A stretch of DNA of 37,945 nt from Nonomuraea lactucae (lineage in GTDB: Bacteria > Actinomycetota > Actinomycetes > Streptosporangiales > Streptosporangiaceae): the NCBI RefSeq assembly GCF_003313395.1, contig NZ_QNFZ01000292.1, positions 1 through 37,945 of the forward strand, given 5' to 3'. Of the stretch, positions 5,875-37,945 are shown piece after piece. Made by a program: the position numbers and the translations under genes. Position 1 is the stretch's first letter. Each line of letters starts with the position of its first letter. The notes under the pieces are model-generated. The model was not told the origin of the DNA and ran no database searches. It was given only the letters and a program-made list of their open reading frames with translations.

Positions 5875-7068
5875 CTATCCGCTCAGCGACATGCCGAAGT
5901 CCGCGCCCTTGGGCGGCTGGACGGGCCGCAGGTCGTCGGCGTTTCGGCCGGCGACCGCGACCTGCCCGTACGGCGCCGCGTCCGGACGGCCCACGTAGAT
6001 CTTGTTGCCGCTGAACGCCACGGCGTAACCGAACAGGTCTCCCTGGGACGGGAGCGTGCGGTCCTCGCCGGAGTCCCGGAACGACACCAGTCGCACGCCG
6101 CCGCCGTACGGGGCGCCGATGGCCAGCCTGCCGTCGGGGGAGGCGGCCAGCGAGAAGCCGAACGCCTGCTTGCCGCCCTGCTGTACCTTCCTCTTCGAGG
6201 CCAGCTTCGCGTCGAGCAGATCCACGTAGCCGGCACCGGGCGCGCCGACCGCGAGCCCCGCGCCCTCGGCGTAGGCGAGCGCGTACCCGTACCTGTCGCC
6301 CGACGCGGCGGTGGGGGAGTCGACCTTCACGCCCTCGAGCCTCGGCGCCAGCACGTCCTTGATGGAGACGACGGAGCCCGAGTCGATCTTGCCCGCGCCG
6401 ACCTGGCGGCCCGCGCCGTCGTCGTTCTCGTACGGCACGCCGACGATCAGCTGGTTGCCCGCGCCCATCGCCAGCGACCAGCCGAACTGGTCGCCGACCT
6501 CGCCGTTGCCGGGAACCTCCGTCGAATCCTGGCTGATCCTGCGCAGCGGGCCGTCGCCCTCGCGGATGTACAGGGCGCCGGTGTCGGACCGCTGCGCCTC
6601 GTCCTCGTACGGCGCGCCGATCGCCACCAGGCTGCCCTTGGCCGCCAGCGACCAGCCGAAGTGGGCGTCCCGCTGCGGCTCGATGGCGTACAGCTGCTTC
6701 GGAGGCGCGCTGCTCCCGCCGTACACCACGTAGACGGCGCCCGCGTCCTGACTGCCCCGCACGTCCGTGAACGGCGCGCCGACGACCAGGTCGGCGCAGG
6801 CGTCGCCGTCGACCTTCGCCAGCCGTACCGACCAGCCGAAACCGTCGCCCTGCGCCAGGCCGGGCACCGTGACGGGCACGACCTTCCCGCCGGAGACCAC
6901 GTGCACGGCGCCCTTGTCGTCGTCGGCGAACGGGTCGCCGACCGCCACGTCCTCCACGCCGTCACCGTCGAAGTCGGCGGGTCCCGCGCAGGCGGCGGCC
7001 GTCGCGCCGGTCCCGTGGACCAGTGTTCCCGCCGCCAGCAGGAGCGCCAGGAGCGTCGCCCGGATCAT
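5875..7068 (-). CDS. secreted FG-GAP repeat beta-propeller protein
   Basis: 397 aa. A signal peptide ([19 protein letters not shown], probable cleavage after ATAAA) precedes about seven FG-GAP/integrin-alpha-like blades. The first two carry the calcium-type loop (DFDGDGVEDVAVGDPF and KVDGDACADLVVGAPF); later blades keep the VGAP/IGAPY core (VAIGAPYED, IVGVPYEND, AVGAPGAG, AIGAPYGGG, YVGRPDAAP). Seven blades would close one propeller, typically a surface module for protein or glycan binding. The ATG at 7068 overlaps the kinase stop in ATGA, so translation is coupled to the kinase and the longer upstream frame is only a shadow of that gene. The pairing suggests the propeller works with the kinase's extracellular domain; this is inference. 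Confidence 0.85.
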   Translation of the reverse strand: MIRATLLALLLAAGTLVHGTGATAAACAGPADFDGDGVEDVAVGDPFADDDKGAVHVVSGGKVVPVTVPGLAQGDGFGWSVRLAKVDGDACADLVVGAPFTDVRGSQDAGAVYVVYGGSSAPPKQLYAIEPQRDAHFGWSLAAKGSLVAIGAPYEDEAQRSDTGALYIREGDGPLRRISQDSTEVPGNGEVGDQFGWSLAMGAGNQLIVGVPYENDDGAGRQVGAGKIDSGSVVSIKDVLAPRLEGVKVDSPTAASGDRYGYALAYAEGAGLAVGAPGAGYVDLLDAKLASKRKVQQGGKQAFGFSLAASPDGRLAIGAPYGGGVRLVSFRDSGEDRTLPSQGDLFGYAVAFSGNKIYVGRPDAAPYGQVAVAGRNADDLRPVQPPKGADFGMSLSG

Positions 7069-9185
7069 GACAACCTCACCTCGACCTGGCGACCACCTTG
7101 GAGAAGGGTCGCGGTGAGTTGAATGGGTTTGCGGTAGAGGGGCAGGTCGAAGACGAAGACGCGGTCTATGCGGCCCCCGGGGACGATGACGTCGGGGAGT
7201 GTCACCGGTGAGGGGTCGTGGCGTCCGCCCCGGTCGTCCTGGAGGGTCACGACGGGGCGGCCGATCTCCCGAGGCACACCGCCCGGGTTGATCATCGACC
7301 AGCGGACCGCGCAGAGCTGGCCCTGGGTCTGCCGCGTGCCCTCGAACTCCTTGAGGCCGCACTGGGGAGCCGCCGCCACGATCAGTTGCGGGTCGTCGAA
7401 GGCGCCGCCGAGGGGGAACCTGCGGCCGAGGTCGTTCGGCTGCCGGGCCACCGGGGAGACGGTCTGGCCACGGGGGGACGGCGTCACGCCGCGGCCAGAG
7501 GTGATGATCAGAACCCCGGCGGTGACGGCGATGGCCAGCACCGCGGCGGCGGCCGCGATCAGCCAGCGGGTGCCGCGCGGGCGCTCGGGCTGGGGTGGGA
7601 CGGTGGAGAGGGCGTCACGGTCCTGCTGGATCGGTTGCCCTTGTGGGCCGGACTGGGCATTCTCCCGCCGTGCCCGCGCTTGTCCTTGCGCCAGTGCCTC
7701 TGCGTGGCCCTGTGCCCGCGCCTGTGCCTGTGGTTGTTGTGGCTGGGGTTGTGCCTGGGCCCGTGTTCGCCCCTCGGCCTGCGCCTGGGGTTGTGCCTGG
7801 GGTTGCGCCTGGGCCTGTGTCCGCGCCTCGGCCTGCGCCTGAGCCTCCGCGTGCGCCTGGGCCTGTGCCTGGACGATCGCCTGTGCCTCGGCGTCCAGGC
7901 GGGCCAGCTCTTCCCTGGCGGCCAGCTCCTCCCTTCGAGCCAGCTCCTCCCTACGCGCCAGTTCCTCCTTCTTGCTGGTCGGCCCCTGCCTGCCGGTCGG
8001 TCCGCGGTTGCCCTGTTCCTCGCTCACCGCAGTCGCAGGGACCTGCGCCGAGCTGTCCTGCGCAGCGGCCCGCTCCTGCTGGGGCGCCGCGCCGCTCGCC
8101 CCTGCCCGCCGCGTCGAGTCGGTCTGCCCGGGCGGCTGCGTCTGCCGCAGCGCCCTCCCGTCCGGCAGCGTGTTGTGATCAGGCGCGTCACCCGTGGCAG
8201 GCTCTGGTCCAGGACTCCTGGTCACCATGTCGCCGGGCGGAGGCGTGGCGAACGTGGCCGTGATGTCGGGCTCGTCCACCACGCTCTGCGGGGGCTCCCA
8301 GTCGCCCAGCAGGTCGTTCGCCACCAGCGTGGGCGGGTCCGCCGCGGCGGTGCGGGCCGGGGAGGTGCCTCCCACGAGCGCGATCAGCAGGTCCTGTGCC
8401 GTGGGCCGCTGGGCGGGGTCCATCGACGTCGCCAGCCGTACCAGCTCGTTCAGCGGCGCGGGCAGCACGCCCAGCTCCGGCGGCGTGTGCAGCACCCTGG
8501 AGGCCAGCGTGATGGCGTCGCCGCGGCCGAACGGGTGGCGCCCGTTGCCCGCGTAGGCCACCAGGCAGCCCCAGGCGAAGATGTCGGCGGCGGGGGTGAC
8601 CGTCTCGCCGCGTACCTGCTCGGGCGCCCACCAGCCCGGACTGCCGAGCAGCTCACCGGACATGGTGAACCCGGTCTCCCTGTCCAGCGCCCGCGCGATG
8701 CCGAAGTCGATCACCCGTGGCCCGGAGAGGGAGAGGATGACATTGGCCGGTTTGAGGTCGCGGTGAACTAACCCGGCGACGTGGATGGCGGCCAGCGCGG
8801 CGGCGACCCCCAGCGCGACGCCGTGCAGCGGCCCTGGATCCAGCGCCCCGTGCTGTGTGATCTGCCCGGACAGCGGGAGGCCCGCGATGTACTCGGTCAC
8901 CATGTAGGGCCGGCCGTCGCCGGTGTTGCCGTTGTCGAGCACCTGTGCCGTACAGAAGGACGCCACCTTCCGGGCGTTCTCCACCTCGCCGTGGAATCGC
9001 GCCGCGAACCCCTCCTGGTTCGCGAACTCCACCTTCACCACCTTGACCGCCACGAACCGTCCCGTGGGCGCCCGCGCCAGGAACACCGTGCCCATGCCGC
9101 CCTCTCCCAGGCGTCCGAGCAACCGGTATGGACCGATTTCCCGCAGGTCCGTCGGGCGGAGCGGCGCGGCGCCCGTTGGCTCCAT
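7065..9185 (-). CDS. transmembrane Ser/Thr protein kinase (PknB-like) with extracellular domain
   Basis: 706 aa from ATG 9185, chosen because GGAAGGGA lies 8 bases upstream; an alternative ATG at 9242 adds 19 residues. The Hanks-type kinase domain spans about 20-280: glycine loop GEGGMG 27-32, catalytic Lys48 in [12 protein letters not shown] from 141, DFG 160-162, then WAPEQV. A Pro/Thr-rich stretch leads to Glu/Ala/Arg repeats (EELARR) and a long Gln/Ala repeat linker, then a single membrane helix at about 540-564 and a ~140-residue extracellular part with two cysteines (QCG...LCAVRW) that looks beta-rich. No PASTA repeats are present. The stop overlaps the start of the secreted propeller gene (ATGA). 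Likely a sensor kinase for a surface cue; ligand and substrates are unknown. Confidence 0.92.
7680..7970 (-). repeat. low-complexity coding repeats in the kinase juxtamembrane linker
   Basis: Two adjoining repeat tracts inside the kinase gene. At about 7905-7970, 18-base units encode repeats of [12 protein letters not shown]. At about 7680-7895, imperfect units encode QAQA-rich sequence with interspersed E, R and P. They form a long flexible or helical cytoplasmic linker between kinase domain and membrane helix. Slippage at such tracts may change linker length between strains. Confidence 0.8.
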
Positions 9186-9273: not shown

Positions 9274-10116
9274 ATGATGAGGCTGTTGGGCCCGGCAGAA
9301 ATACGTATTTTGGCGGACAAGCTAGATCTTCGTCCAACGAAAAGACTAGGACAGAACTTCGTGATCGACGGGGGAACCGTCCGCCGAATCGTACGGGTTG
9401 CCGACCTGTCCTCGGAAGACGTCGTGATCGAAGTGGGGCCCGGTCTCGGGTCGCTCACCCTGGCGTTGCTGTCGTCGGCCAGGCACGTGGTGGCCGTCGA
9501 GATCGACCCGGTGCTGGCCGCCCAGCTCCCCTTGACCGTGGAGGAACGCGGCCTCGGCGACAGGCTGACCGTGATCGGGGCCGACGCCATGAGGATCTCC
9601 CCGTCGGACCTTGGGGGTTCCGAGCCCACCGCCCTGGTGGCCAACCTGCCGTACAACGTGGCGGTTCCGGTGGTGCTGCACCTGCTGGAGGCGCTGCCCT
9701 CGCTGCGGAAGGGCCTCGTCATGGTGCAGTCGGAGGTGGCCGACCGGCTGGCGGCCGGTCCGGGTTCCAAGGTGTACGGGGTGCCGTCGGTGAAGGCCGC
9801 CTGGTACGCGGACGTGCGCCGGGCCGGACCCGTCGGCCGTACCGTCTTCTGGCCGGTGCCCAACGTCGACTCCGGCCTCGTCTCGCTGACGCGCCGCGAC
9901 CCACCACCCACCAGCGCGTCCCGGGAAGAGGTCTTCACGGTGATCGACGCGGCGTTCGCCCAGCGGCGCAAGACCCTCCGAGCCGCCCTGGCCTCCTGGG
10001 CGGGCAGCCCCACACAAGCGGAGGAGGCGCTGCGGGCGGCCGGAGTGGACCCCTCGGCCCGCGGCGAGCAACTGGACGTGACCACGTTCGCCCGAATCGC
10101 CGAGAACAAACCCTGA
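9274..10116 (+). CDS. ksgA: 16S rRNA (adenine(1518)-N(6)/adenine(1519)-N(6))-dimethyltransferase
   Basis: 280 aa. Dimethylates two adjacent adenosines in the 3' hairpin of 16S rRNA using SAM; a late ribosome-assembly checkpoint. RLGQNFVID near the N terminus, the SAM loop EVGPGLG (GPGLG 55-59) and the catalytic NLPY at 124-127 are all present, followed by the C-terminal helical domain ([12 protein letters not shown]). The ATG at 9274 has GGGAG about 9 bases upstream; ATG 9277 is possible, and an ATG at 9256 would add six non-conserved residues. It is divergent from the kinase gene by 88 bp. In many actinobacteria the upstream neighbour is rpfB; here it is not. Confidence 0.97.
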
Positions 10117-10157
10117 CACCCCACCCCACCCCGCCCTCCGAGCCGCCGCAGCGCCCC

Positions 10158-10237
10158 CACCCCGTCGAGCACCAAGCACACGACCGGAGCACGCTCACCC
10201 CGTCGAGCACCAAGCACACGACCGGAGCACGCTCACC
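10158..10237. repeat. 38-bp tandem direct repeat, 2.1 copies
   Basis: Two identical 38-base units (10158-10195 and 10196-10233) beginning CACCCCGTCGAGCACC, with the first four bases of a third. They start about 40 bases after the ksgA stop, in a gene-poor stretch. The units do not form a hairpin and there are no spacers, so this is not CRISPR. It may reflect slippage or a remnant of insertion at the border of the accessory patch that follows. Confidence 0.9.
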
Positions 10238-10275
10238 GGCAACCAGGTGTGCGGCCGATACGCTCTTGATCGTGA

Positions 10276-10668
10276 GTGGGCGAGACCCGGATTTCCCGCG
10301 AGGGGCGCGGCGAGTTTGACGATCTTGTCGACCGAGCGGTGAACGCTGGGGAGATCACCTATGTCGTCCGGGACGGACGGCGCGTCGCCGCCGTCGTCCC
10401 TCTCAGCCTCCTCCAGGAACGCGTGCCGACCGTGACGCTCCACCAGACCGGCGACGGCGACCTGGTCATCGCACGAGGCGGCAGCGCCTGGACGGTGAGG
10501 CCGCCCACCGGCACCCCCCACGGAACCTTCGCCGCCGACGCGCGAGCCTGGCTCGACGACACCTGGCGGCCCAGTGAGCGCGGCGGCCAGGCCAGGACCC
10601 GCATCGACGAAAGCTGCATCCGGGCCGTGGAATGGACCGGCGAGGAGATACGCCTGCGCAACCCCTAA
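10276..10668 (+). CDS. Phd/YefM-like antitoxin-type protein with C-terminal extension (orphan)
   Basis: 130 aa from GTG 10276, the codon right after an in-frame TGA. Residues 6-45 (REGRGEFDDLVDRAVNAGEI then YVVRDGRRVAAVVPL) match the Phd/YefM pattern: a short helix, LxDxV, then V.r.GrpVAvlvP. These proteins bind DNA as dimers and neutralise a toxin through the C terminus. Here the C-terminal ~85 residues (including AWLDDTW) are unlike any toxin-binding tail I recognise. No toxin gene follows; instead the same frame continues past the TAA into interrupted coding-like sequence. No good ribosome binding site is visible. It may be an orphan, or part of a decaying gene pair. Confidence 0.5.
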   Translation: MGETRISREGRGEFDDLVDRAVNAGEITYVVRDGRRVAAVVPLSLLQERVPTVTLHQTGDGDLVIARGGSAWTVRPPTGTPHGTFAADARAWLDDTWRPSERGGQARTRIDESCIRAVEWTGEEIRLRNP

Positions 10669-10998
10669 AGCTCTCTCAACGAGGCCGCGAACGCGTACCT
10701 CGGCCCGCTCACCTACACCCTGAGTGCGGTGAAGGGCAGCGCCGGGGAGGATGCCGTCGGACGGCACCTGGATGAGACGGGGATCGCGTACTCAGACATG
10801 GATGATGCCACTGGTGACTGGCTGTAGGAGCACGTGTACAGCTGGGAGCCCGACCCCTATGAGGAGTCTCCCTGGGTGCTGGTCACCCCGGCGGGGCAGG
10901 ATCCGCGCGCGGACAACGTCATCTGCTCACGGACGGACTCTGACGATCTGACGCGCGTTCACGAGGCGGCGACCGCTTTCGCGGGACGGTTCACGGCC
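10669..10998 (+). pseudogene. interrupted coding remnant in frame with the antitoxin-like gene
   Basis: After the TAA at 10666-10668 the same frame reads SSLNEAANAYLGPLTYTLSA... to a TAG at 10825-10827, then continues as EHVYSWEPDPYEESPWVLV...DDLTRVHEAATAFAGRF. Both pieces look like normal protein sequence rather than random translation, and all three segments share one frame. A GTG at 10834 could start the last piece, but there is no convincing ribosome binding site. I do not recognise the family. The simplest reading is one or two small genes inactivated by nonsense mutations; two tiny genes, or chance, remain possible. The 3' limit is approximate and meets the transposase remnant on the other strand. 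Confidence 0.4.
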
Positions 10999-25271: not shown

Positions 25272-26243
25272 CTACTCGGGCTGCTCGCCCTGACCGAGGC
25301 GGGCGACCCGCTCGGCCAGCCTGGCCTCGCGCTGGCGCAGCTTGTCCTCGCGCTCGCGGGCCTTCTCCGCCTCCCGCAACTGCCGCTCGCGTTCCTTCTC
25401 CGCCTCCTTGAGCAGGCGCTCGCGCTCCTTCAGCTCGCGGGCCCTGACCTTCTCCGCCTCCCGCAGCTCGCGCTGGCGCGCCTTCTCGGCCTCCCGCAGC
25501 TCTTTCTCGCGGGCCTTCTCGGCCTCCTTGAGCTCCTTGTCGCGGACCTTCTCCAGCTCACGCAGCTCCTTGTCGCCCGTGCGCGCCTTGGCGCCGCCCG
25601 GCTCGTGCGCCCGCGTGGTGGCGGTGATCGCCGGCTGCGGGTTGAGCCCGGTCAGGCCGTTCCAGGCGAGGTTGACCAGGTGGGCGGCGACCTCCTCGCG
25701 GCCCGGCTTGCGCACGTCGAGCCACCACTGGCCGGTCAGGGCCACCATGCCCACCAGCATCTGGGCGTACATGGGCGCGAGCTTCGGGTCGTAGCCCCGG
25801 GCCGCGAACTCGTCGGCGAGCACGTCCTCGACCTGGCTGGCGATCTCGCTGATCAGGCTCGCGAACGTGCCCGTGCCCGACGCGGCGTGGGAGTCGCGCA
25901 CCAGGATGCGGAACCCCTCGCTGCTCTCCTCGATGTAGCGCAGCAGGGCCAGCGCCGCCCGCTCCAGCTTGACCAGCGAGTGGGACGCGGACAGCGCCTC
26001 GGTGATCATGGTCAGCAGCTTCTGCATCTCGCGGTCCACGACGACCGCGTAGACGCCCTCCTTGCCGCCGAAGTGCTCGTAGACCACCGGTTTCGACACC
26101 TGCGCCGTCGCCGCTATCTCCTCGATAGAGGTCCCGTCGAACCCCTTCTCGGCGAACAGCGTGCGGCTGATGTGGATCAGCTGCTCTCTTCGCTCGCTTC
26201 CGGACATGCGCCTGCGAGATCGGGGTTCGGTCACGGTCTCCAT
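25272..26243 (-). CDS. TetR-family regulator with a long C-terminal charged helix
   Basis: 323 aa from ATG 26243; a TTG at 26294 would overlap the upstream stop and is less likely. The N-terminal DNA-binding domain is clear ([20 protein letters not shown]; helix-turn-helix about 38-57, [20 protein letters not shown]). The ligand domain extends to about 210. Then comes an unusual ~95-residue tail (about 224-316) of 11-residue repeats such as [11 protein letters not shown], a predicted solvent-exposed coiled coil or single alpha helix. It lies 43 bases after the desaturase stop on the same strand and so is probably co-transcribed with it; control of fatty-acid desaturation is likely. The tail is not part of a normal TetR protein. 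Confidence 0.9.
25296..25571 (-). repeat. 33-bp-period coding repeats for the TetR helix tail
   Basis: Five or more consecutive 11-residue (33-base) units: Lys/Arg-Glu-Leu starts recur at residues 225, 236, 247, 258 and 269. Beyond 280 the pattern continues less regularly ([18 protein letters not shown]). An 11-residue period fits a right-handed coiled coil; alternating E and K/R also suits a lone stable helix. Confidence 0.85.
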
Positions 26244-26286
26244 AATGGCGGTCCCGGATGAAGGACCGCTCACCAACGGATTGGCG

Positions 26287-27225
26287 TCAGGCAAGCCGCT
26301 TCGCCGCCAGTCGCTCGGGCGTCGGCCAGCGCACGTCGTAGACCCAGCCGAGCCGCTCGAAGATCCGGATGAGACCGGCGCTCAGGTCGATCTGCCCCTT
26401 CAGCGCGCCGTGCCGCGCGCAGGTCGGGTCGGAGTGGTGCAGGTTGTGCCAGGACTCGCCGAAGGACGGGATCGCCAGCCACCACACGTTGCGCGACTTG
26501 TCGCGCACCTGGAACTCCTCCTCGCCGAACACGTGGCAGATCGAGTTGATCGACCAGGTCACGTGGTGCAGCAGGCCGATGCGCACCAGCGTCCCCCAGA
26601 AGAACGCGGTCAGCGCGCCCTGCCAGGACCAGGTGATCAGACCGCCGAGGACGCCGGGCAGCACGATCGACGTGACGGCCATGGCGCCGAACCACCTGTG
26701 CAGCTTCATGACGTCCTCGTCCTTGCACAGGTCGGGGGCGTACTTCTCGCGGTTGGTGCGCTCGGCGTCGAACAGCCAGCCCATGTGCGCGTAGAGCAGG
26801 CCCTTGGACAGCGACCTGAAGCCCGGACCGAAGCGCCACGGGGAGTGCGGGTCGCCCTCCTTGTCGGAGAACTTGTGGTGCTTGCGGTGAGTGGCGACCC
26901 AGTCGAGCACGGACATCTCCAGCGAGAGGCTGCCCGCGATGCCCATCGCGATCTTCAGCGGCCTCTTGGCCTTGAACGAGCCGTGCGTGAAGTAGCGGTG
27001 CAACCCGACGGTGACGCCGAGTCCCGAGACGATGTAGAAGACGAACGCGATCGCGATGTCCGTCCAGCCGAGGCCCCATCCCCAGGCGAGCGGCACGGCG
27101 GCCGCGATCGCGATCAGGGGCAGGCCCACCACCAGTGCGAACGTGACGAGCTCGGCCTTGCTGCGCGGTTCGGGTTCGAAGTCAGGCTTCGGTCCTGGTG
27201 CGGGACGTTCGGCGAGAACAGTCAT
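26287..27225 (-). CDS. membrane acyl-CoA desaturase (delta-9 type)
   Basis: 312 aa. Di-iron integral-membrane desaturase that introduces a cis double bond in acyl-CoA or acyl-lipid chains. All three histidine boxes are present: HRYFTH (H76, H81), HRKHH (H113, H116, H117) and HNLHH (H260, H263, H264). Hydrophobic segments lie at about 26-50, 56-75, 185-205 and 208-225. GDPHSPW after box 2 is typical of delta-9 acyl-CoA desaturases. The ATG at 27225 has AAAGG seven bases upstream. A TetR gene follows 43 bases downstream, and repeats with candidate operators precede it. Electrons presumably come from a separate reductase not seen here. Confidence 0.93.
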   Translation of the reverse strand: MTVLAERPAPGPKPDFEPEPRSKAELVTFALVVGLPLIAIAAAVPLAWGWGLGWTDIAIAFVFYIVSGLGVTVGLHRYFTHGSFKAKRPLKIAMGIAGSLSLEMSVLDWVATHRKHHKFSDKEGDPHSPWRFGPGFRSLSKGLLYAHMGWLFDAERTNREKYAPDLCKDEDVMKLHRWFGAMAVTSIVLPGVLGGLITWSWQGALTAFFWGTLVRIGLLHHVTWSINSICHVFGEEEFQVRDKSRNVWWLAIPSFGESWHNLHHSDPTCARHGALKGQIDLSAGLIRIFERLGWVYDVRWPTPERLAAKRLA

Positions 27226-30885: not shown

Positions 30886-31470
30886 ATGGACCGCTGGCTC
30901 ATCGTCGGGTTGGGCAACCCGGGCCCCGAATACGCGGGCAACCGGCACAACGCCGGCTTCATGGCGCTCGACGAGCTCGCCTCCAGGGCGGGCGGGCGGT
31001 TCAAGGCGCACAAGAGCAGGGCTGAGGTGCTGGAGACCCGCGGCGCGGTGCTGGCCAAGCCGCTCACCTACATGAACCTGTCCGGCGGCCCCGTGAAGGC
31101 CCTGTCCGACTTCTACAAGATCGGGCCCGACCGGCTGATCGTGGTCCACGACGAGCTCGACGTCCCCTACGGCGCGCTGCGGGCCAAGCTCGGCGGCGGC
31201 GACAACGGCCACAACGGGCTCAAAGCGATCACCAAGTCCCTCGGCACCCGCGACTACCTGCGGGTCCGCTTCGGCATCGGGCGCCCGCCCGGCCGCATGG
31301 ACCCGGCCGCCTTCGTGCTCAAGGACTTCGCCACCGCCGAGCGCAAGGACCTGCCCTTCCTGGTGGACCGCGCCGCCGACGTGATCGAGTCGCTGATGGA
31401 GCGCGGCCTCGAAGCCACGCAGAACGAGTTCCATCGGGCAGATCTCAAGATTTCCGGCCCTCCTCGCTGA
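30886..31470 (+). CDS. pth: peptidyl-tRNA hydrolase
   Basis: 194 aa. Releases peptides from stalled peptidyl-tRNA, recycling the tRNA. The active-site residues are visible: N11 in GLGNPGPEY, His21 in GNRHNAGF, Asp89 in [11 protein letters not shown] and Asn110 in GDNGHNGLK, along with the [10 protein letters not shown] motif. The ATG at 30886 has AAGGGG five bases upstream. The gene order rplY-pth is conserved in actinobacteria. Nothing abnormal is seen. Confidence 0.97.
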
Positions 31471-31562: not shown

Positions 31563-33023
31563 TTGAACGACGGCGAAAGGCTGATGACCGTCGTGGGCAT
31601 CGGGCATGACGCCGCGTGGCGGGTCGGTCCGCACCAGCCGGTCTGGATGCGGGCCTACCGCATGCGGGCCGTGGTCTCCGACTTCCTGGGTGCCGGCGCC
31701 GGGGCGGCTGCCGCCTTCTTCCTCAGGTTCGGCGAGTTCACCGCGTACGTCCTGCCGTACGTGCTGGTGAGCGCGGCGCTGCCCTGGGTGTGGATCTGCG
31801 CGGTCGCGCTCAACCGGGCCTACGAGCCGCGCATGATCGGCATCGGCTCCGAGGAGTTCCGCCGCGTCGCGCGGTGCGGTGTGGCGCTGACCGCCATCAC
31901 GGCCATCGGCTCCTACGTGACCAAGACCGACGTCGCCCGCGGCTACGTGGTGCTCGCCCTGCCGCTGGTGACATTCCTCACCCTGGTCCTCAGATACCGG
32001 CTGCGCCGCTCGCTGCACCGGCGCAGGGCGGGCGGGGCCTGCATGCGCAGGGTCGTGGCGGTCGGCCACGCCGCCTCGATCGCCGAGCTGGTGCAGCTGT
32101 TCCGCAAGGAACGCCATCACGGCATGGAGATCGTCGCCGCCTGCCTGCCCGGTGACGCGCCGGGCGAGACGATCGCCGGGGTCCCGGTCGCCGGCGACTT
32201 CAGCGACGTGCCCCTCGTGGTGGGTCACGCCGGCGCCGACACCGTGGCCGTGCTGGCCTGCCCCGAGATGGACGGCGTGGCGCTGCGGCGGCTGGCCTGG
32301 CGGCTGGAGCGCACGCACACCGAGCTGGTGGTGGCACCGGCCCTGATGGAGGTGGCCGGGCCGCGCACCACGATCCGGCCCGCCGCCGGGCTGCCGCTGC
32401 TGCACGTCGAGCATCCCGAGCTGACCGGTGCCCGCCAGCTGGTCAAGAACTTCTTCGACCGGATGGTGGCCGCCGCGCTGCTCGTCATGCTGTCCCCGCT
32501 GCTCGTCGCGCTCGCCGTCGCGGTGCGCGCCACCAGCCCCGGGCCCGCGCTGTTCCGGCAGACCAGGGTCGGCAGGGACGGCGGGCTCTTCACCATCGTG
32601 AAGTTCCGCACAATGCGGCGCGGCTCGGAGGAAGCGAAGATCACGCTGGTCAGCGACGGTGACGGCGTGCTGTTCAAGATCCGGAACGATCCACGGGTGA
32701 CCCCGCTCGGAGCGCTGATGCGGCGTCACTCGCTCGACGAGCTGCCCCAGCTCATCAACGTGGTCCTGGGCCACATGTCACTGGTGGGCCCGCGCCCGCC
32801 GCTACCCGAAGAGGTCGCCCGCTACGGCGACGACGTACGCAGGAGGTTGCTCGTGCGGCCCGGTCTCACGGGGTTGTGGCAGGTGAATGGCAGATCCGAC
32901 CTGACATGGGAGGAATCCGTCCGCCTGGACTTGCGTTACGTGGAGAACTGGTCCCTCACGCTCGACCTCCAGATCCTGTGGAAGACTTGGTCGGCTGTCG
33001 CCCGCGGGCAAGGAGCATATTGA
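31563..33023 (+). CDS. polyprenyl-phosphate sugar-1-phosphate transferase (WcaJ/WbaP-like)
   Basis: 486 aa. TTG at 31563 is chosen because GGAGG lies six bases upstream; an ATG at 31584 is possible. Four or five N-terminal membrane segments (about 36-60, 65-85, 110-128, 135-155) precede a Rossmann-like CoA-binding region (RRVVAVGHAASIAELVQLF) and a C-terminal bacterial sugar-transferase domain from about 295: KNFFDRMVAAALLVMLSPLL, SPGPALFRQTRVGRDGG, KFRTMR, RHSLDELPQLINV, SLVGPRPPLPEE. These enzymes start surface polysaccharide or glycolipid synthesis by loading a sugar phosphate on undecaprenyl phosphate. The stop overlaps cysQ (TGATG), tying glycan initiation to sulfate metabolism. The sugar is unknown. 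Confidence 0.92.
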   Translation: MNDGERLMTVVGIGHDAAWRVGPHQPVWMRAYRMRAVVSDFLGAGAGAAAAFFLRFGEFTAYVLPYVLVSAALPWVWICAVALNRAYEPRMIGIGSEEFRRVARCGVALTAITAIGSYVTKTDVARGYVVLALPLVTFLTLVLRYRLRRSLHRRRAGGACMRRVVAVGHAASIAELVQLFRKERHHGMEIVAACLPGDAPGETIAGVPVAGDFSDVPLVVGHAGADTVAVLACPEMDGVALRRLAWRLERTHTELVVAPALMEVAGPRTTIRPAAGLPLLHVEHPELTGARQLVKNFFDRMVAAALLVMLSPLLVALAVAVRATSPGPALFRQTRVGRDGGLFTIVKFRTMRRGSEEAKITLVSDGDGVLFKIRNDPRVTPLGALMRRHSLDELPQLINVVLGHMSLVGPRPPLPEEVARYGDDVRRRLLVRPGLTGLWQVNGRSDLTWEESVRLDLRYVENWSLTLDLQILWKTWSAVARGQGAY

Positions 33024-33787
33024 TGACGATTCGCGACGACAACTCCCTCGCCGCCGATCTGGCGACCCAAGCCGGAGAGCGCTTGCTGGCCATCCGCGAG
33101 CGAGAGGGCTTCGCCGATCCAGCCGCCCTGCGCGCCGCCGGCGACCGTGCGTCCCACCTCTTCCTCATGGAGGCGCTGGAGCGGCTGCGCCCGAGCGACC
33201 ACGTGCTGTCCGAAGAGGCCACGCGCGAGGAGCGGCTCGACCCGCGCAGGCTGGAGGCCGAGCGCGTGTGGATCGTCGACCCGCTCGACGGCACCCGCGA
33301 GTTCTCCGAGGAGGGCAGGTCCGACTGGGCCGTCCACGTGGCGCTGTGGGAGCGGGGCACGCTGACCGCCGGAGCGGTGGCGCTGCCCGCCCAGGGCCGC
33401 ACCCTCGGCACGGCCGAGCCGCCCAAGCTGCCCGGCTTCGCGGGCGGCAGGTTCCGCATCGCGGTCAGCCGCACCCGGCCGCCGGAGTTCGTGCGAAACC
33501 TGGCCCACCTCGTCGGAGCCGACCTGGTCCCGATCGGGTCCGCGGGGGCGAAGATCTCCGCGGTGCTCACCGGTGACGTCGAGGCGTACGTACACGCCGG
33601 CGGCCAGTACGAGTGGGACTCGGCCGCGCCCGTGGCGGTCGCGCAGGCGGCCGGAGCTTACGCCAGCCGCATCGACGGCGCGGCGCTGACCTATAACCAG
33701 GCAGACCCCTCACTACCAGATATTCTGGTTTCCCTACCGGACTTGGCGTCTACTTTGCTCGCCGGGATCCGTGACCTGCACCGCTGA
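33023..33787 (+). CDS. cysQ: 3'(2'),5'-bisphosphate nucleotidase
   Basis: 254 aa. Inositol-monophosphatase fold enzyme that dephosphorylates PAP (the product left by sulfotransferases) or PAPS to AMP/APS. The metal ligands appear in SEEA (63-66), DPLDGT (86-91) and WDSAAPVAVA near residue 209. The ATG at 33023 overlaps the preceding stop (TGATG) and has AAGGAG upstream. cysD follows after 19 bases. In an operon with sulfate activation genes and near a sulfotransferase, the PAP-clearing role is much more likely than an inositol phosphatase role. Confidence 0.88.
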   Translation: MTIRDDNSLAADLATQAGERLLAIREREGFADPAALRAAGDRASHLFLMEALERLRPSDHVLSEEATREERLDPRRLEAERVWIVDPLDGTREFSEEGRSDWAVHVALWERGTLTAGAVALPAQGRTLGTAEPPKLPGFAGGRFRIAVSRTRPPEFVRNLAHLVGADLVPIGSAGAKISAVLTGDVEAYVHAGGQYEWDSAAPVAVAQAAGAYASRIDGAALTYNQADPSLPDILVSLPDLASTLLAGIRDLHR

Positions 33788-33806
33788 AACGCCGGAGGAA
33801 GCTCCT

Positions 33807-34721
33807 ATGCTCCAGCGCGACTACACGACGTCGCAGCTCGACGTGCTCGAAGCCGAAGCCATTCACATCATGCGCGAAGTGGCGGCCGAGTTCGAGCGCC
33901 CCTGTCTGCTCTTCTCCGGCGGCAAGGACTCCATCGTCATGCTCCGCATCGCCGAGAAGGCGTTCTGGCCGGCGGCGATCCCTTTCCCGCTCATGCACGT
34001 CGACACCGGCCACAACTTCGACGAGGTCATCGACTTCCGTGACCGGCGGGCCCGCGAGCTGGGCGTGCGGCTGATCGTCGCCAGCGTGCAGGACTCGATC
34101 GACGCCGGTCGCGTGGTCGAGGAGACCGGCCGGCGCGCCTCCCGCAACAGGCTGCAGACCACCACGCTCCTCGACGCGATCGAGGAGCACGAGTTCGACG
34201 CGGTCTTCGGCGGCGCCCGCCGCGACGAGGAGAAGGCGCGGGCCAAGGAGCGGGTGTTCTCCTTCCGCGACGACTTCGGCCAGTGGGACCCGAAGAACCA
34301 GCGCCCCGAGCTGTGGAACCTCTACAACGCCCGCATCCGCAAGGGCGAGCACATCCGCGTCTTCCCGCTGTCCAACTGGACCGAGCTCGACGTGTGGGAC
34401 TACATCCGGCGCGAGGGCATCGAGATCCCGTCGATCTACTTCACCCACACCCGCAAGGTCTTCGAGCGCGACGGCATGCTGCTGCCCGACTCCGACGTCG
34501 TGCAGCGCGGCGACGACGAGCCGCTGTTCGAGGCCGTGGTGCGCTACCGCACTGTGGGCGACATGACCTGCACCGGGGCCGTCCAGTCGACGGCCGCCAC
34601 GGTCGAGGAGATCATCGAGGAGATCGCGGCCACCCGGATCACCGAGCGCGGGGCCACCAGGGCCGACGACCGCTCCTCGGAGGCCGCCATGGAGGACCGC
34701 AAGCGGGAAGGCTACTTCTAG
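33807..34721 (+). CDS. cysD: sulfate adenylyltransferase subunit 2
   Basis: 304 aa. Catalytic subunit of ATP sulfurylase, making APS from sulfate and ATP with GTP hydrolysis by CysN. PP-loop SGGKDS at 37-42 within LLFSGGKDSIVML; HVDTGHNFDEVIDFRD, FGGARRDEEKARAKER and PLSNWTELDVWDYI are typical of CysD. The ATG at 33807 has GGAGGA eight bases upstream. cysN starts four bases after the stop. The terminal EDRKREGYF is the usual CysD end. Length matches the family (about 300 aa). Confidence 0.97.
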   Translation: MLQRDYTTSQLDVLEAEAIHIMREVAAEFERPCLLFSGGKDSIVMLRIAEKAFWPAAIPFPLMHVDTGHNFDEVIDFRDRRARELGVRLIVASVQDSIDAGRVVEETGRRASRNRLQTTTLLDAIEEHEFDAVFGGARRDEEKARAKERVFSFRDDFGQWDPKNQRPELWNLYNARIRKGEHIRVFPLSNWTELDVWDYIRREGIEIPSIYFTHTRKVFERDGMLLPDSDVVQRGDDEPLFEAVVRYRTVGDMTCTGAVQSTAATVEEIIEEIAATRITERGATRADDRSSEAAMEDRKREGYF

Positions 34722-34725
34722 ACCG

Positions 34726-35988
34726 ATGGACATTCTGCGTTTCGCCACGGCGGGAAGCGTCGACGACGGCAAGTCCACCCTGATCGGGCGCCTGCTCTTC
34801 GACTCCAAGGCGATCTTCGAGGACCAGCTCGAGGCCGTCGAGCGCACCTCGCGCGACCGCGGCACCGAATACACCGACCTGTCGCTGCTCACCGACGGCC
34901 TGCGGGCCGAGCGGGAGCAGGGCATCACCATCGACGTGGCCTACCGCTACTTCGCCACGCCGCGGCGGAAGTTCATCATCGCCGACACCCCCGGGCACAT
35001 CCAGTACACCCGCAACATGGTCACCGGCGCCTCCACCGCAGACCTGGCGATCATCCTGATCGACGCCCGCAAGGGCGTGCTGGAGCAGTCGCGCCGCCAC
35101 GCCTTCCTGACCTCGCTGCTCCGGGTGCCGCACCTGGTGCTCGCGGTCAACAAGATGGACCTGGTCGACTACTCCGAGGACCGGTTCGAGGAGATCCGCG
35201 AGGAGTTCACCGCCTTCGCCTCGAAGCTCAACGTCGGCGACCTGACGTTCATCCCGATCTCCGCGCTCAACGGCGACAACGTGGTGTCCCGGTCGGAGAA
35301 CACTCCCTGGTACAACGGCTCGTCGCTGCTCCACCACCTGGAGAACGTGCACATCGCCTCCGACCGCAACCTGGTCGACGTCCGGTTCCCGGTCCAGTAC
35401 GTCATCCGCCCGCAGAAGGCCAACGACCACGCCTTCCACGACTACCGCGGCTACGCGGGCCAGGTGGCGGGCGGCGTGCTGAAGCCGGGCGACGAGGTCG
35501 TGCACCTGCCGTCGGGCCTGACCACCCGGATCGCCTCCATCGACACCTTCGACGGGCCGGTGGAGGAGGCGTTCCCTCCGATGTCGGTGACGCTCCGCTT
35601 CGAGGACGACCTCGACATCTCCCGTGGCGACATGATCGCCCGCCCCCACAACCAGCCGCACGTGGCCCAGGACCTCGAGGCGATGGTCTGCTGGATGACC
35701 GAGGGCGCCAAGCTCGCCCCGCGCTCCAAGCTGGCCATCAAGCACACGACCCGCACGGCCCGCGCCCTCGTGCGCGACCTGCACTACCGCCTCGACGTCA
35801 ACACGCTGCACCGCGACGAGGAGGCAACGTCGCTCGGGCTCAACGAGATCGGGCGCGTGTCGCTCCGGGTCACCCAGCCGATGTTCGTGGACGACTACGC
35901 GCGCAACCGGCTCACCGGCGGCTTCATCCTCGTGGACGAGGCCACCAACGGCACGGTCGGCGCCGGCATGATCATCGACGCCCACTGA
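34726..35988 (+). CDS. cysN: sulfate adenylyltransferase subunit 1 (GTPase), without APS kinase domain
   Basis: 420 aa. EF-Tu-like GTPase that drives APS formation with CysD. G1 is GSVDDGKST (10-18), the switch region contains REQGITIDVAYRYF, G3 is DTPGH from residue 87, and G4 is NKMD (142-145). Beta-barrel domains follow and the protein ends at about 420. CysN-CysC fusions, as in mycobacteria, are about 200 residues longer, so no APS kinase is attached. The gene closes a tight run of four genes. Its TGA is the first base triplet of a 17-bp tandem repeat, followed by a terminator. Confidence 0.96.
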   Translation: MDILRFATAGSVDDGKSTLIGRLLFDSKAIFEDQLEAVERTSRDRGTEYTDLSLLTDGLRAEREQGITIDVAYRYFATPRRKFIIADTPGHIQYTRNMVTGASTADLAIILIDARKGVLEQSRRHAFLTSLLRVPHLVLAVNKMDLVDYSEDRFEEIREEFTAFASKLNVGDLTFIPISALNGDNVVSRSENTPWYNGSSLLHHLENVHIASDRNLVDVRFPVQYVIRPQKANDHAFHDYRGYAGQVAGGVLKPGDEVVHLPSGLTTRIASIDTFDGPVEEAFPPMSVTLRFEDDLDISRGDMIARPHNQPHVAQDLEAMVCWMTEGAKLAPRSKLAIKHTTRTARALVRDLHYRLDVNTLHRDEEATSLGLNEIGRVSLRVTQPMFVDDYARNRLTGGFILVDEATNGTVGAGMIIDAH

Positions 35989-36053
35989 GGTCCGGGGCGC
36001 CCTGAGGTCCGGGGCGCCCTGAGGTCCGGGGCGCCTTGAGGTCCGGGACGCCC
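35986..36053. repeat. four tandem 17-bp repeats starting at the cysN stop codon
   Basis: Units TGAGGTCCGGGGCGCCC at 35986-36002, 36003-36019, 36020-36036 (last base T) and 36037-36053 (one internal change). The first unit begins with the cysN stop. Because 17 is not a multiple of three and every unit carries TGA, expansion does not alter the protein. They lie between the gene and its terminator. Confidence 0.95.
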
Positions 36054-36075
36054 ACTTGGGTGCGGCACGTCGCGA

Positions 36076-36104
36076 CGGCCCCCGCGGTTCCGCGGGGGCC
36101 GTTC
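36076..36104 (+). terminator. intrinsic terminator after cysN
   Basis: CGGCCCCCGCG-GTTC-CGCGGGGGCCG (36076-36101), an 11-bp perfect stem with a four-base loop, followed by TTC. It should end the sugar transferase-cysQDN transcript. The sulfotransferase 90 bases beyond therefore probably has its own promoter. Confidence 0.8.
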
Positions 36105-36192
36105 GCGTTCGCCGCTTCGGTAGATCCTTTGGTGTTCCGGTGACCGTTCGATTACTCTGAGTGGTAGAGTTTTCACGCTAGGTATCCACGAT

Positions 36193-37110
36193 GTGAAAGC
36201 CCATTCCCCCGTGACTCACCCTTCGACCGGCACCCGGGTGGTTTTCCTGGGCGGCCTCGGCCGCAGCGGCACCACGCTGCTCGAGAGGCTGCTGGGAGAG
36301 CTGCCCGGCGTGGCGCCCCTCGGCGAGGTGGTGCACCTCTGGGCACGGGGCGTGCTCGCGGGAGAGCCGTGCGGCTGCGGCGAGCCGTTCCCCGCCTGCC
36401 CGTTCTGGCGCGAGGTCGGCGACCGGGCGTTCGGGGGCTGGAGCGAGACGCTGGCCACCCGCGCGCTGGCGCTGCGGCATCGCGTCGACCGCACACGCAG
36501 GGTCCTCCGCATCGGCCATCCCGACCTGGCCGAATACGTCCGCACCTACCGGCGCGTCTACGACGCGGCGGCGGTCGCGGCGGGCGCGCGCGTCGTGATC
36601 GACTCCAGCAAGCACGCCTCCCTGGCCCACTGCCTCGCGGCGGGCGGAGCCGCCATCCACGTGATCCATGTGGTGCGCGATCCGCGTGCTGTCGCCCACT
36701 CCTGGCGCAGGACGGTCCGCCGCCCCGAGGACGGCCGGCCGATGACCCGCTGGAGCCCGGCCCGCACCGCACTCCACTGGACCGCCCAGAACCTCGCGCT
36801 CGACCTCCTCGCCCGCCGCGGCGCCCAGGTGACCAGGCTCCGCTACGAGGATCTCGTCACCGATCCGCGCGCCACGCTGACCTCCCTGGCCCAGGAGCTG
36901 GGCCTGCCCGCCGAGCTGCCGTTCGTCACCGGCTCGACCGCCCGCCTCACGATGGCCCACACCGCCTCCGGCAACCCGATGCGCTTCACGGTCGGCCCGC
37001 TCGGGCTGGCGCTCGACGACTCGTGGCGGTCCGGCTCCCGGCGCGGGCTGGTCACCGCCCTCACCTGGCCGCTCCGGTCCAGATACGGCTACCGCGGGGC
37101 CCCGGCTTGA
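36193..37110 (+). CDS. PAPS-dependent sulfotransferase family protein
   Basis: 305 aa from GTG 36193; a GTG at 36211 is the alternative start. The 5'-phosphosulfate loop GRSGTT (23-28) in FLGGLGRSGTTLLERLL and the 3'-phosphate motif HVVRDPRAVAHSW (R162, D163) are the two cofactor sites of sulfotransferases. VIDSSKHASLAHCL between them is typical of actinobacterial members. No membrane segment is present. No ribosome binding site is seen. An inverted repeat ACTCT-N7-AGAGT (36154-36170) lies just upstream and may be an operator or promoter element. It probably transfers sulfate to a glycan or lipid; its position after cysQDN supports PAPS use. The acceptor is unknown. Confidence 0.88.
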   Translation: MKAHSPVTHPSTGTRVVFLGGLGRSGTTLLERLLGELPGVAPLGEVVHLWARGVLAGEPCGCGEPFPACPFWREVGDRAFGGWSETLATRALALRHRVDRTRRVLRIGHPDLAEYVRTYRRVYDAAAVAAGARVVIDSSKHASLAHCLAAGGAAIHVIHVVRDPRAVAHSWRRTVRRPEDGRPMTRWSPARTALHWTAQNLALDLLARRGAQVTRLRYEDLVTDPRATLTSLAQELGLPAELPFVTGSTARLTMAHTASGNPMRFTVGPLGLALDDSWRSGSRRGLVTALTWPLRSRYGYRGAPA

Positions 37111-37140
37111 CCCGTCTCACCCCACCCCGGGAGGAGCTCC

Positions 37141-37945
37141 ATGATCCACTCCGTCGGCGTGGTGATCCCCACGCGAGGCGACCGGCCCCGGCACCTGCGT
37201 GCCGCCGTCCGTGCGGTGCTGGCCCAGGACCATCCCGGCAGGATCTCCCTCGTCGTCGTCGCTGACCGCGCCGATCCGGGGCCGGTTGAGGACCAGGTGG
37301 CCGGCGTCGCCGTCCCTCGCGGCGGGCGCGTACGAGTGCTGCCCAACTGCCTCACCCCAGGGCTGCCCGGCGCCCGCAACACCGGCATCGCCGCGTGCGA
37401 CACCGACCTGATCGCGTTCTGCGACGACGACGACGTCTGGCTGCCGGGCAAGCTCGCCGCGCAGACCCGCGCCCTCGACGGCGGGGCCGAGTTCGCGAGC
37501 TGCGGCATCGAGGTCGAGTACGACGGACGCCGGGTCCCACGGCTGGCAGGCACCACCACCGTCACCGAGGACCAGCTCGTCCGGTCGCGCATGGTCATGG
37601 TGCACTCGTCCACGTTCCTGTTCCGGCGCGGCGGGCTCTGGGTCGACGAGAGCGCCCCCGGCGGCCAGAACGAAGACTGGGACCTCGCCCTGCGCGCCGC
37701 CCGGCGACGGCCCATCGCGAACGTCGACAGCCCCCTCGTCCGGGTCCGGTGGGGCGCGTCCCACTACGTCGCCCGCTGGAGCGACCGCATCGCCGGGCTC
37801 CAATGGATGCTCGCCCGCCACCCCCGCCTGGCCGCCGATCCACGCGGCGCGGCCCGCATCTACGGCCAGCTCGCCTTTCACCACGCCGCGCTCGGCCACC
37901 GGCGCCAGGCGGGCCGCTGGGCGCTGCGCGCTCTCGCCGCCCGGG
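37141..37945 (+). CDS. GT2 family glycosyltransferase, 3' end outside the window
   Basis: 268 codons are visible from ATG 37141 (GGGAGGAG four bases upstream); no stop occurs before the window ends. The GT-A fold is clear: VVIPTRGDRPRHLRAAVRAV, GARNTGIAACDTDLIAFCDD with an Asp-rich metal site (CDDDDVW), and NEDWDLALRAA as the likely catalytic ED region. The visible part has no membrane segment. It starts 30 bases after the sulfotransferase stop, so both are probably one transcript. It likely adds a sugar in the assembly of the surface glycan begun by the upstream polyprenyl-phosphate transferase. Confidence 0.88.
   Translation, partial: MIHSVGVVIPTRGDRPRHLRAAVRAVLAQDHPGRISLVVVADRADPGPVEDQVAGVAVPRGGRVRVLPNCLTPGLPGARNTGIAACDTDLIAFCDDDDVWLPGKLAAQTRALDGGAEFASCGIEVEYDGRRVPRLAGTTTVTEDQLVRSRMVMVHSSTFLFRRGGLWVDESAPGGQNEDWDLALRAARRRPIANVDSPLVRVRWGASHYVARWSDRIAGLQWMLARHPRLAADPRGAARIYGQLAFHHAALGHRRQAGRWALRALAAR

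Follow-up and report, generated by a model that had tools for sequence, protein, structure and literature searches.

What does an actinomycete make with sulfate-activation genes that stand between a sugar transferase and a sulfotransferase? This arrangement occurs in the draft genome of Nonomuraea lactucae (8.67 Mb in 1068 contigs), at the right end of one entire contig (C985) of 37,945 nt, analysed here at its full length and referred to as the window. A sequence-only reading of the window had proposed a locus for a sulfated surface polysaccharide or glycolipid, dedicated to that product rather than to cysteine synthesis. We consider it likely that the locus is of the Wzx/Wzy polysaccharide type and that its product is sulfated inside the cell, with a sulfate-activation core that is shared with the cysteine branch and, by analogy, a role in sporulation.

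Open reading frames and domains bore out the six genes, their common (plus) strand and the gaps between them as first described. The leftmost encodes a polyprenyl-phosphate sugar-1-phosphate transferase of the WbaP/EPS_sugtrans type (31563-33023; PF02397, 5.7e-65), and supplies the initiating transferase that a Wzx/Wzy locus requires (TIGR03025, 403.2 bits against a cut-off of 295.55; profile matches were judged against Pfam and NCBIfam cut-offs). It overlaps by one base (TGATG) with cysQ, which encodes a PAP phosphatase (33023-33787; PF00459). CysQ scores 102.6 bits, under the NCBIfam CysQ equivalog cut-off of 228.8, and its best solved relative, 5djf (2.8e-66), is a phosphatase of 3'-phosphoadenosine 5'-phosphate (PAP). 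Nineteen bases further on lies cysD, for the small subunit of ATP sulfurylase (33807-34721; NF003587/TIGR02039 above cut-off), and after another 4 bases cysN, for its GTPase subunit (34726-35988; TIGR02034, 574.2 bits against a cut-off of 336.1). CysN has no fused CysC; its profile matches do not list a domain for the kinase of adenosine 5'-phosphosulfate (APS). The last two genes encode a sulfotransferase (ST1, 36193-37110; PF13469, Sulfotransfer_3, 1.6e-16) of the type that uses 3'-phosphoadenosine 5'-phosphosulfate (PAPS), and a family 2 glycosyltransferase (GT2, 37141-37945; PF00535, 1.3e-15) that is cut by the contig end. The P-loop and RDP motifs are retained among the aligned homologues of ST1. 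In a structure search with the AlphaFold model of ST1 (pLDDT 88.5), PDB matches 1-17 were all PAPS sulfotransferases, whose TM-scores by query length were modest (0.37-0.51), and match 18 was an adenylate kinase, an enzyme that has the P-loop in common with them.

The window is a whole contig and, as had been remarked, shows no APS kinase; the kinase is found on the contigs downstream. The GT2 frame continues in contig C836, which shares an identical end overlap of 34 bases with the window and one of 42 bases with contig C695, and a DNA search using the corresponding stretch of Nonomuraea indica, the closest named relative found (87% identity in ST1), showed both contigs to be collinear with the locus of that species. 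According to our own gene calls in the draft contigs, GT2 is followed by genes for a WecG-type glycosyltransferase (PF03808), a second sulfotransferase (ST2), a MatE/Wzx-like flippase, a third sulfotransferase (ST3), a kinase-like protein, a Wzy_C-like protein, Wzz, a protein like those of glycoside hydrolase family 26 (GH26), an APS kinase, a methyltransferase-like protein and Mfd. The match of the Wzx-like protein is barely above the MatE cut-off (25.8 against 24.9 bits) and that of its N. indica counterpart slightly under it (23 bits), while the chain-length protein Wzz is well supported (PF02706, 37.1 bits against 25.5). Pfam gave no match for the kinase-like protein, whose label comes from an HGDLSPWN motif that we take to be kinase-like. 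The GH26-like protein has a start that appears lipoprotein-like by eye, and it matches Endoglucanase H in the PDB (7e-12), presumably a GH26 enzyme. ST2 and ST3 sit on either side of wzx, and the best match of ST3 is an Alicyclobacillus sulfotransferase, followed by heparan sulfate sulfotransferases. The genome has nine PF13469 sulfotransferase genes (12 matches merged), three of which fall within the 20.5 kb of this locus where 0.02 would be expected; this enrichment is post hoc, one of the genes having been the starting point, and refers to a single Pfam family. The proposal of a sulfated-glycan locus thus gained support from a flippase, a polymerase-like protein, a chain-length protein, a further glycosyltransferase, two more sulfotransferases and cysC, present on the downstream contigs and in relatives. 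In C836, the reading frame that ends in the WecG-type enzyme contains, upstream of it, a long run of 24-base tandem repeats that code for TGRD-like repeats (L111:4557-4920).

The APS kinase marks the distal end of the locus, ahead of mfd and separated from Wzz by the GH26-like gene. The genome has no second PF01583 match. The protein, of 409 residues, combines a PUA_2 part with an APS kinase domain, and over its N-terminal half it can be aligned with two-domain Sat/APS-kinase proteins. Among 40 CysC homologues, the kinase P-loop was kept in all and the canonical ATP-sulfurylase motif in none, with a partial PLHH or PLHR in some; the motif was sought with one pattern, QxRNPxHxxH-like, which we assume to be the characteristic one. 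PF01747 (ATP sulfurylase) had no match anywhere in the genome. With an intact P-loop and without the ATP-sulfurylase motif, CysC should convert APS to PAPS, the APS being supplied by CysDN. A CysC match was found in 111 of 295 genomes at class level, and in 151/151 genomes of an order-level draw (149 from the same family). A gene of the TauE/SafE sulfite-exporter family (L112:16154-17035) is of a kind that adjoins the APS kinase in many relatives; it is not among the gene calls of Nonomuraea contig C695.

Is the sulfate-activation core reserved for sulfation? A dedicated PAPS unit would require a second ATP sulfurylase for cysteine. We found one CysD in the Nonomuraea genome, that of the window, and no family match to a Sat-type ATP sulfurylase; CysD was also single in 108 of 120 genomes of the family (threshold 1e-40). 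A 6-kb contig (C551) carries cysH together with a sulfite-reductase-like gene, named from its sequence, and neither cysD nor cysN. The best solved match of CysH is 7lhr, named as a PAPS reductase. CysH contains CC and CxxC pairs, which we take to be typical of APS reductases, as iron-sulfur ligands, and from them we infer that its probable substrate is APS. Given a single CysD, no Sat, and cysH with a sulfite reductase elsewhere, APS would feed both branches, barring another source of sulfur for cysteine. It is therefore most likely that the CysDN of the window supplies both cysteine synthesis and sulfation. We rejected, on copy number, the cassette as a dedicated unit separate from cysteine synthesis, and with it that part of the sequence-only reading.

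The same six-gene order was sought in other genomes, and it was present on one strand in 16 of 18 close named relatives (Nonomuraea, Streptosporangium and Sphaerisporangium; loci L016-L032 and L034 among 67 ST1 loci), which argues against chance. In the two exceptions, the sequence is cut inside cysN (L026), or cysN and ST1 are some 9 kb apart (L031). The remaining 49 ST1 loci had no CysQ, CysD or CysN at 1e-10 within the sequence around ST1. WecG, ST2, Wzx, ST3, the kinase-like protein, Wzy and Wzz were found in all 15 close relatives whose sequence extends far enough, and a CysC homologue in all 15 of the relatives' genomes searched; in the seven that were re-read, CysC stood on the same stretch at its distal end, and the coordinates in the other eight fit this placement. 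The left flank is also kept: the gene for peptidyl-tRNA hydrolase (pth, 30886-31470, plus strand; an open reading frame named from its place and sequence) precedes the locus in relatives.

We next consider a set of 120 genomes from the family, in which the positions of CysD, CysC and ST1 were tallied on best matches. CysD and CysC were present in all 120; 87 genomes had both on one contig, never more than 36.1 kb apart (median 15.3 kb), and 33, N. lactucae included, had them on separate contigs. Of the 86 genomes with an ST1 homologue, 71 had it no more than 10 kb from CysD, 4 at a greater distance on the contig of CysD and 11 on a different one. Thirteen genomes of the set, nine of them drawn from the 34 without ST1, were read in detail by mapping the proteins of this locus, a procedure that glycan genes unrelated to the query proteins would escape. 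A Wzx homologue was not seen in seven of the nine genomes without ST1. In G031 and G032, cysN is separated from the gene that follows it by some 115 bases and 1.4 kb, too little to accommodate a cassette; in another (G117) no cassette homologues were seen, in G113 the kinase-like homologue alone, and in G021, G072 and G082 homologues of GT2 and of the kinase-like protein were present. WbaP goes together with the cassette: it was found in all nine mapped loci that have Wzx and whose left side is visible, and among the eight mapped loci without Wzx it was full in L153 and partial in L145. Since the core is present without the cassette in some relatives, cysQ-cysD-cysN and cysC, near pth and mfd, is a sulfate-activation core that holds a variable glycan cassette. 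Many matches to the sulfotransferase in the family had one in-frame stop, mostly TGA, and a selenocysteine was considered; we rejected it on reading 20 sites, of which 17 were an ordinary protein end, one lay upstream of a conserved start and two had no stop (weaker TGA matches in G075 and G116 were left out).

A very similar cluster has been studied genetically in Actinoplanes missouriensis, which partly overtakes the earlier statement that actinobacterial sulfated surface glycans are poorly described. In wps-1 (AMIS_7280-7380), all genes but wpsD, plus the adjoining AMIS_7390, are required for normal sporangium formation or spore release (PMC13390465, 2026). Its authors predict a sulfated polysaccharide, yet unverified, describe such products as uncommon in bacteria outside cyanobacteria, and had not expected the AMIS_7390 result (PMC13390465). 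Both loci have GT2, two kinds of sulfotransferase (one of them heparan-type), WecG/GT26, GH26, a methyltransferase, Wzx, a kinase-like protein, Wzy, Wzz and a Sat/APS-kinase gene, where GH26 and Wzy are candidates in Nonomuraea, and the run Wzx-sulfotransferase-kinase-like-Wzy-Wzz leads towards the APS kinase (AMIS_7390) in the same order; the likeness is one of described domains and order, not of aligned sequences (PMC13390465). Nonomuraea has in addition WbaP, cysQ, cysD and cysN at the left end and a third sulfotransferase, whereas GH26 and the methyltransferase are at other positions and we noticed no DUF4262 gene (PMC13390465). The terms cysN, PAPS and Nonomuraea gave no result in a word search of PMC13390465.

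Taken as a Wzx/Wzy-type locus, the genes suggest the following route, in which domains are seen and reactions predicted. The WbaP-type enzyme would transfer the first sugar phosphate onto undecaprenyl phosphate, and GT2 and the WecG-type enzyme would add further sugars. CysDN would make APS and the two-domain CysC would turn it into PAPS, from which up to three sulfotransferases may transfer sulfate onto the lipid-linked oligosaccharide, their predicted acceptor, while CysQ would remove the by-product PAP. Wzx would then flip the unit, Wzy polymerise it and Wzz determine its length, and the GH26-like protein may trim the polymer. APS from CysDN would also go to the CysH/sulfite-reductase branch, so that the sulfate core is shared, not dedicated. 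The weakest step is the last: by analogy with wps-1, sporulation is the probable time at which the polymer is made, to serve as a matrix or sheath of the spore or sporangium.

Several points weigh against this route. A sulfated product is a prediction in Nonomuraea and A. missouriensis alike, and the acceptors of the sulfotransferases are likewise predicted. The Wzy-like protein is a weak match (Wzy_C, 3.2e-06, 27.5 bits, under the Pfam cut-off of 31.7), and the GH26-like protein is also under its cut-off (17 against 20.2 bits). In A. missouriensis, the mutant of wpsB, one of two sulfotransferases, has sporangia that look normal and a spore release about tenfold lower (PMC13390465). The sulfate genes and the cassette appear not to form a single operon: a strong hairpin between cysN and ST1 (36071-36107, no strand assigned), a possible terminator by its folding energy, suggests that the two halves may be separate transcripts. 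Its best 42-base piece folds with -36.1 kcal/mol and its best 36-base piece with -33.3 kcal/mol, a value matched in none of 60 mononucleotide shuffles, and a comparable hairpin (-29 kcal/mol or stronger) was found in six of eight relatives inspected. A single operon of all six window genes is weakened by it, although the hairpin has no T run and was absent from a consensus terminator scan. Some relatives retain the sulfate core without the cassette, and the idea that finding cysQDN-cysC with no cassette homologue would speak against a glycan locus thus partly applies. Outside the family, ST3 was within 40 kb of CysC in only one of 16 ST3-bearing genomes (of the other 15, eight had it farther away on the same contig, six on separate contigs, and one had no CysC match); inside the family the two were within 40 kb in 18 of 29, on separate contigs in nine and far apart in two. 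Cassette and core can therefore part, and we dropped the extension of their linkage to the whole class. In family f17, two of ten regions around CysC had cassette homologues (GT2, Wzy, Wzx and Wzz in L154; Wzy, Wzx and Wzz in L156), with no sulfotransferase homologue found in either, and the other eight had no cassette homologues.

Two side observations concern these elements. Immediately 3' of cysN, at positions 35988-36053, a GAGGTCCGGGGCGCCCT-like unit occurs four times over with hardly any variation. An actinobacterial metagenome-assembled genome (L036) has two divergent ST1 homologues (6965-7896 and 10001-10945) beside homologues of GT2, Wzy, the kinase-like protein, ST3, Wzx and Wzz, thus the cassette, and no cysDN within the 13 kb of sequence covered.

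The hairpin, the cores without cassette and the lack of linkage between cassette and CysC in most genomes outside the family would also suit a unit mainly for cysteine assimilation (cysQDN-cysC), with the glycan cassette adjacent by accident and its sulfotransferases using general PAPS; the single CysD and the lack of Sat point the same way. We consider this explanation unlikely. A CysH with CC and CxxC pairs, in the role we presume for it, would have no need of PAPS and PAP, with which CysC and CysQ deal; three sulfotransferases lie inside the bracketed stretch; CysD and CysC keep within 36.1 kb of each other in 87 of the 120 genomes; and the APS-kinase-family gene that adjoins wps-1 is required for sporangia (PMC13390465). 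A sulfated glycolipid or lipid-linked oligosaccharide, flipped and left unpolymerised, seems improbable. Few glycosyltransferases are present (WbaP, GT2 and WecG), and mycobacterial sulfolipids are a known actinobacterial case (PMC4373884), but Wzy-like and Wzz-like genes occur in all 15 long named loci, even if the Wzy match itself is under its cut-off. Of the original pair, polysaccharide is thus favoured, and glycolipid is the poorer fit, because Wzx/Wzy/Wzz-like proteins are present. That the sulfotransferases act on proteins or a secondary metabolite is very improbable: the ST1 fold matches do include tyrosylprotein and curacin sulfotransferases, at TM-scores within the modest range given above and a root-mean-square deviation of 7-13 A, but heparan sulfate sulfotransferases are among the matches of ST3, wzx has ST2 and ST3 on its two sides, and no secondary-metabolite synthase was recognised among the gene calls of C836 and C695, where no search was aimed at one.

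A sulfated polysaccharide locus would have parallels elsewhere. The capsule cluster of Vibrio sp. KMM 8419, whose sulfated product was shown by nuclear magnetic resonance, also has PAPS-synthesis and sulfotransferase genes within a polysaccharide cluster; it differs in being an 80-gene cluster of a Gram-negative bacterium with ABC-transporter export (PMC11641403). The synechan cluster of Synechocystis makes a sulfated bacterial exopolysaccharide, with Wzx and a sulfotransferase named, and is cyanobacterial (PMC8205485). The CysD-CysNC complex of Mycobacterium tuberculosis likewise activates sulfate where the routes to cysteine and to sulfolipid divide; there the APS kinase is fused to CysN (PMC4373884), whereas the Nonomuraea kinase is a protein of its own, with two domains, and its ATP-sulfurylase half is degenerate. 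Sulfate-bearing exopolysaccharides have been reported for Bacillus, Kocuria and Streptomyces. In the open-licence literature, searched by titles and abstract openings, we found nothing on this locus in Nonomuraea or Streptosporangium. Elsewhere in the window, a TetR-like regulator with a long charged tail, named by eye, is encoded on the minus strand (25272-26294).

The kind of cluster has thus been described with wps-1; what is new is the CysQDN/APS-kinase bracket, its spread across the family, and a possible cause for the phenotype of the APS-kinase mutant, which the A. missouriensis study left without an explanation. The gene here that resembles AMIS_7390 is the only APS kinase of its genome, lacks the canonical ATP-sulfurylase motif, and ends a sulfotransferase locus that begins with cysQDN; for this reason, and by analogy, loss of PAPS is a possible cause of the sporangium defect in the AMIS_7390 mutant. 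Sulfated-polysaccharide genes are little studied in Gram-positive bacteria, and the interval from cysD to cysC near pth and mfd offers a marker for finding such cassettes in many genera. For the family at large we put forward tentatively, as a reading about which we remain rather undecided, that the sole genes for activating sulfate enclose an interchangeable cassette, one for a sulfated matrix polysaccharide linked to heparan-type sulfotransferases. Sulfated glycans may then have served sporulating actinomycetes widely, and for a long time, as a surface material in development, and the APS kinase at this position would be a developmental gene through the PAPS that it makes for the polymer.

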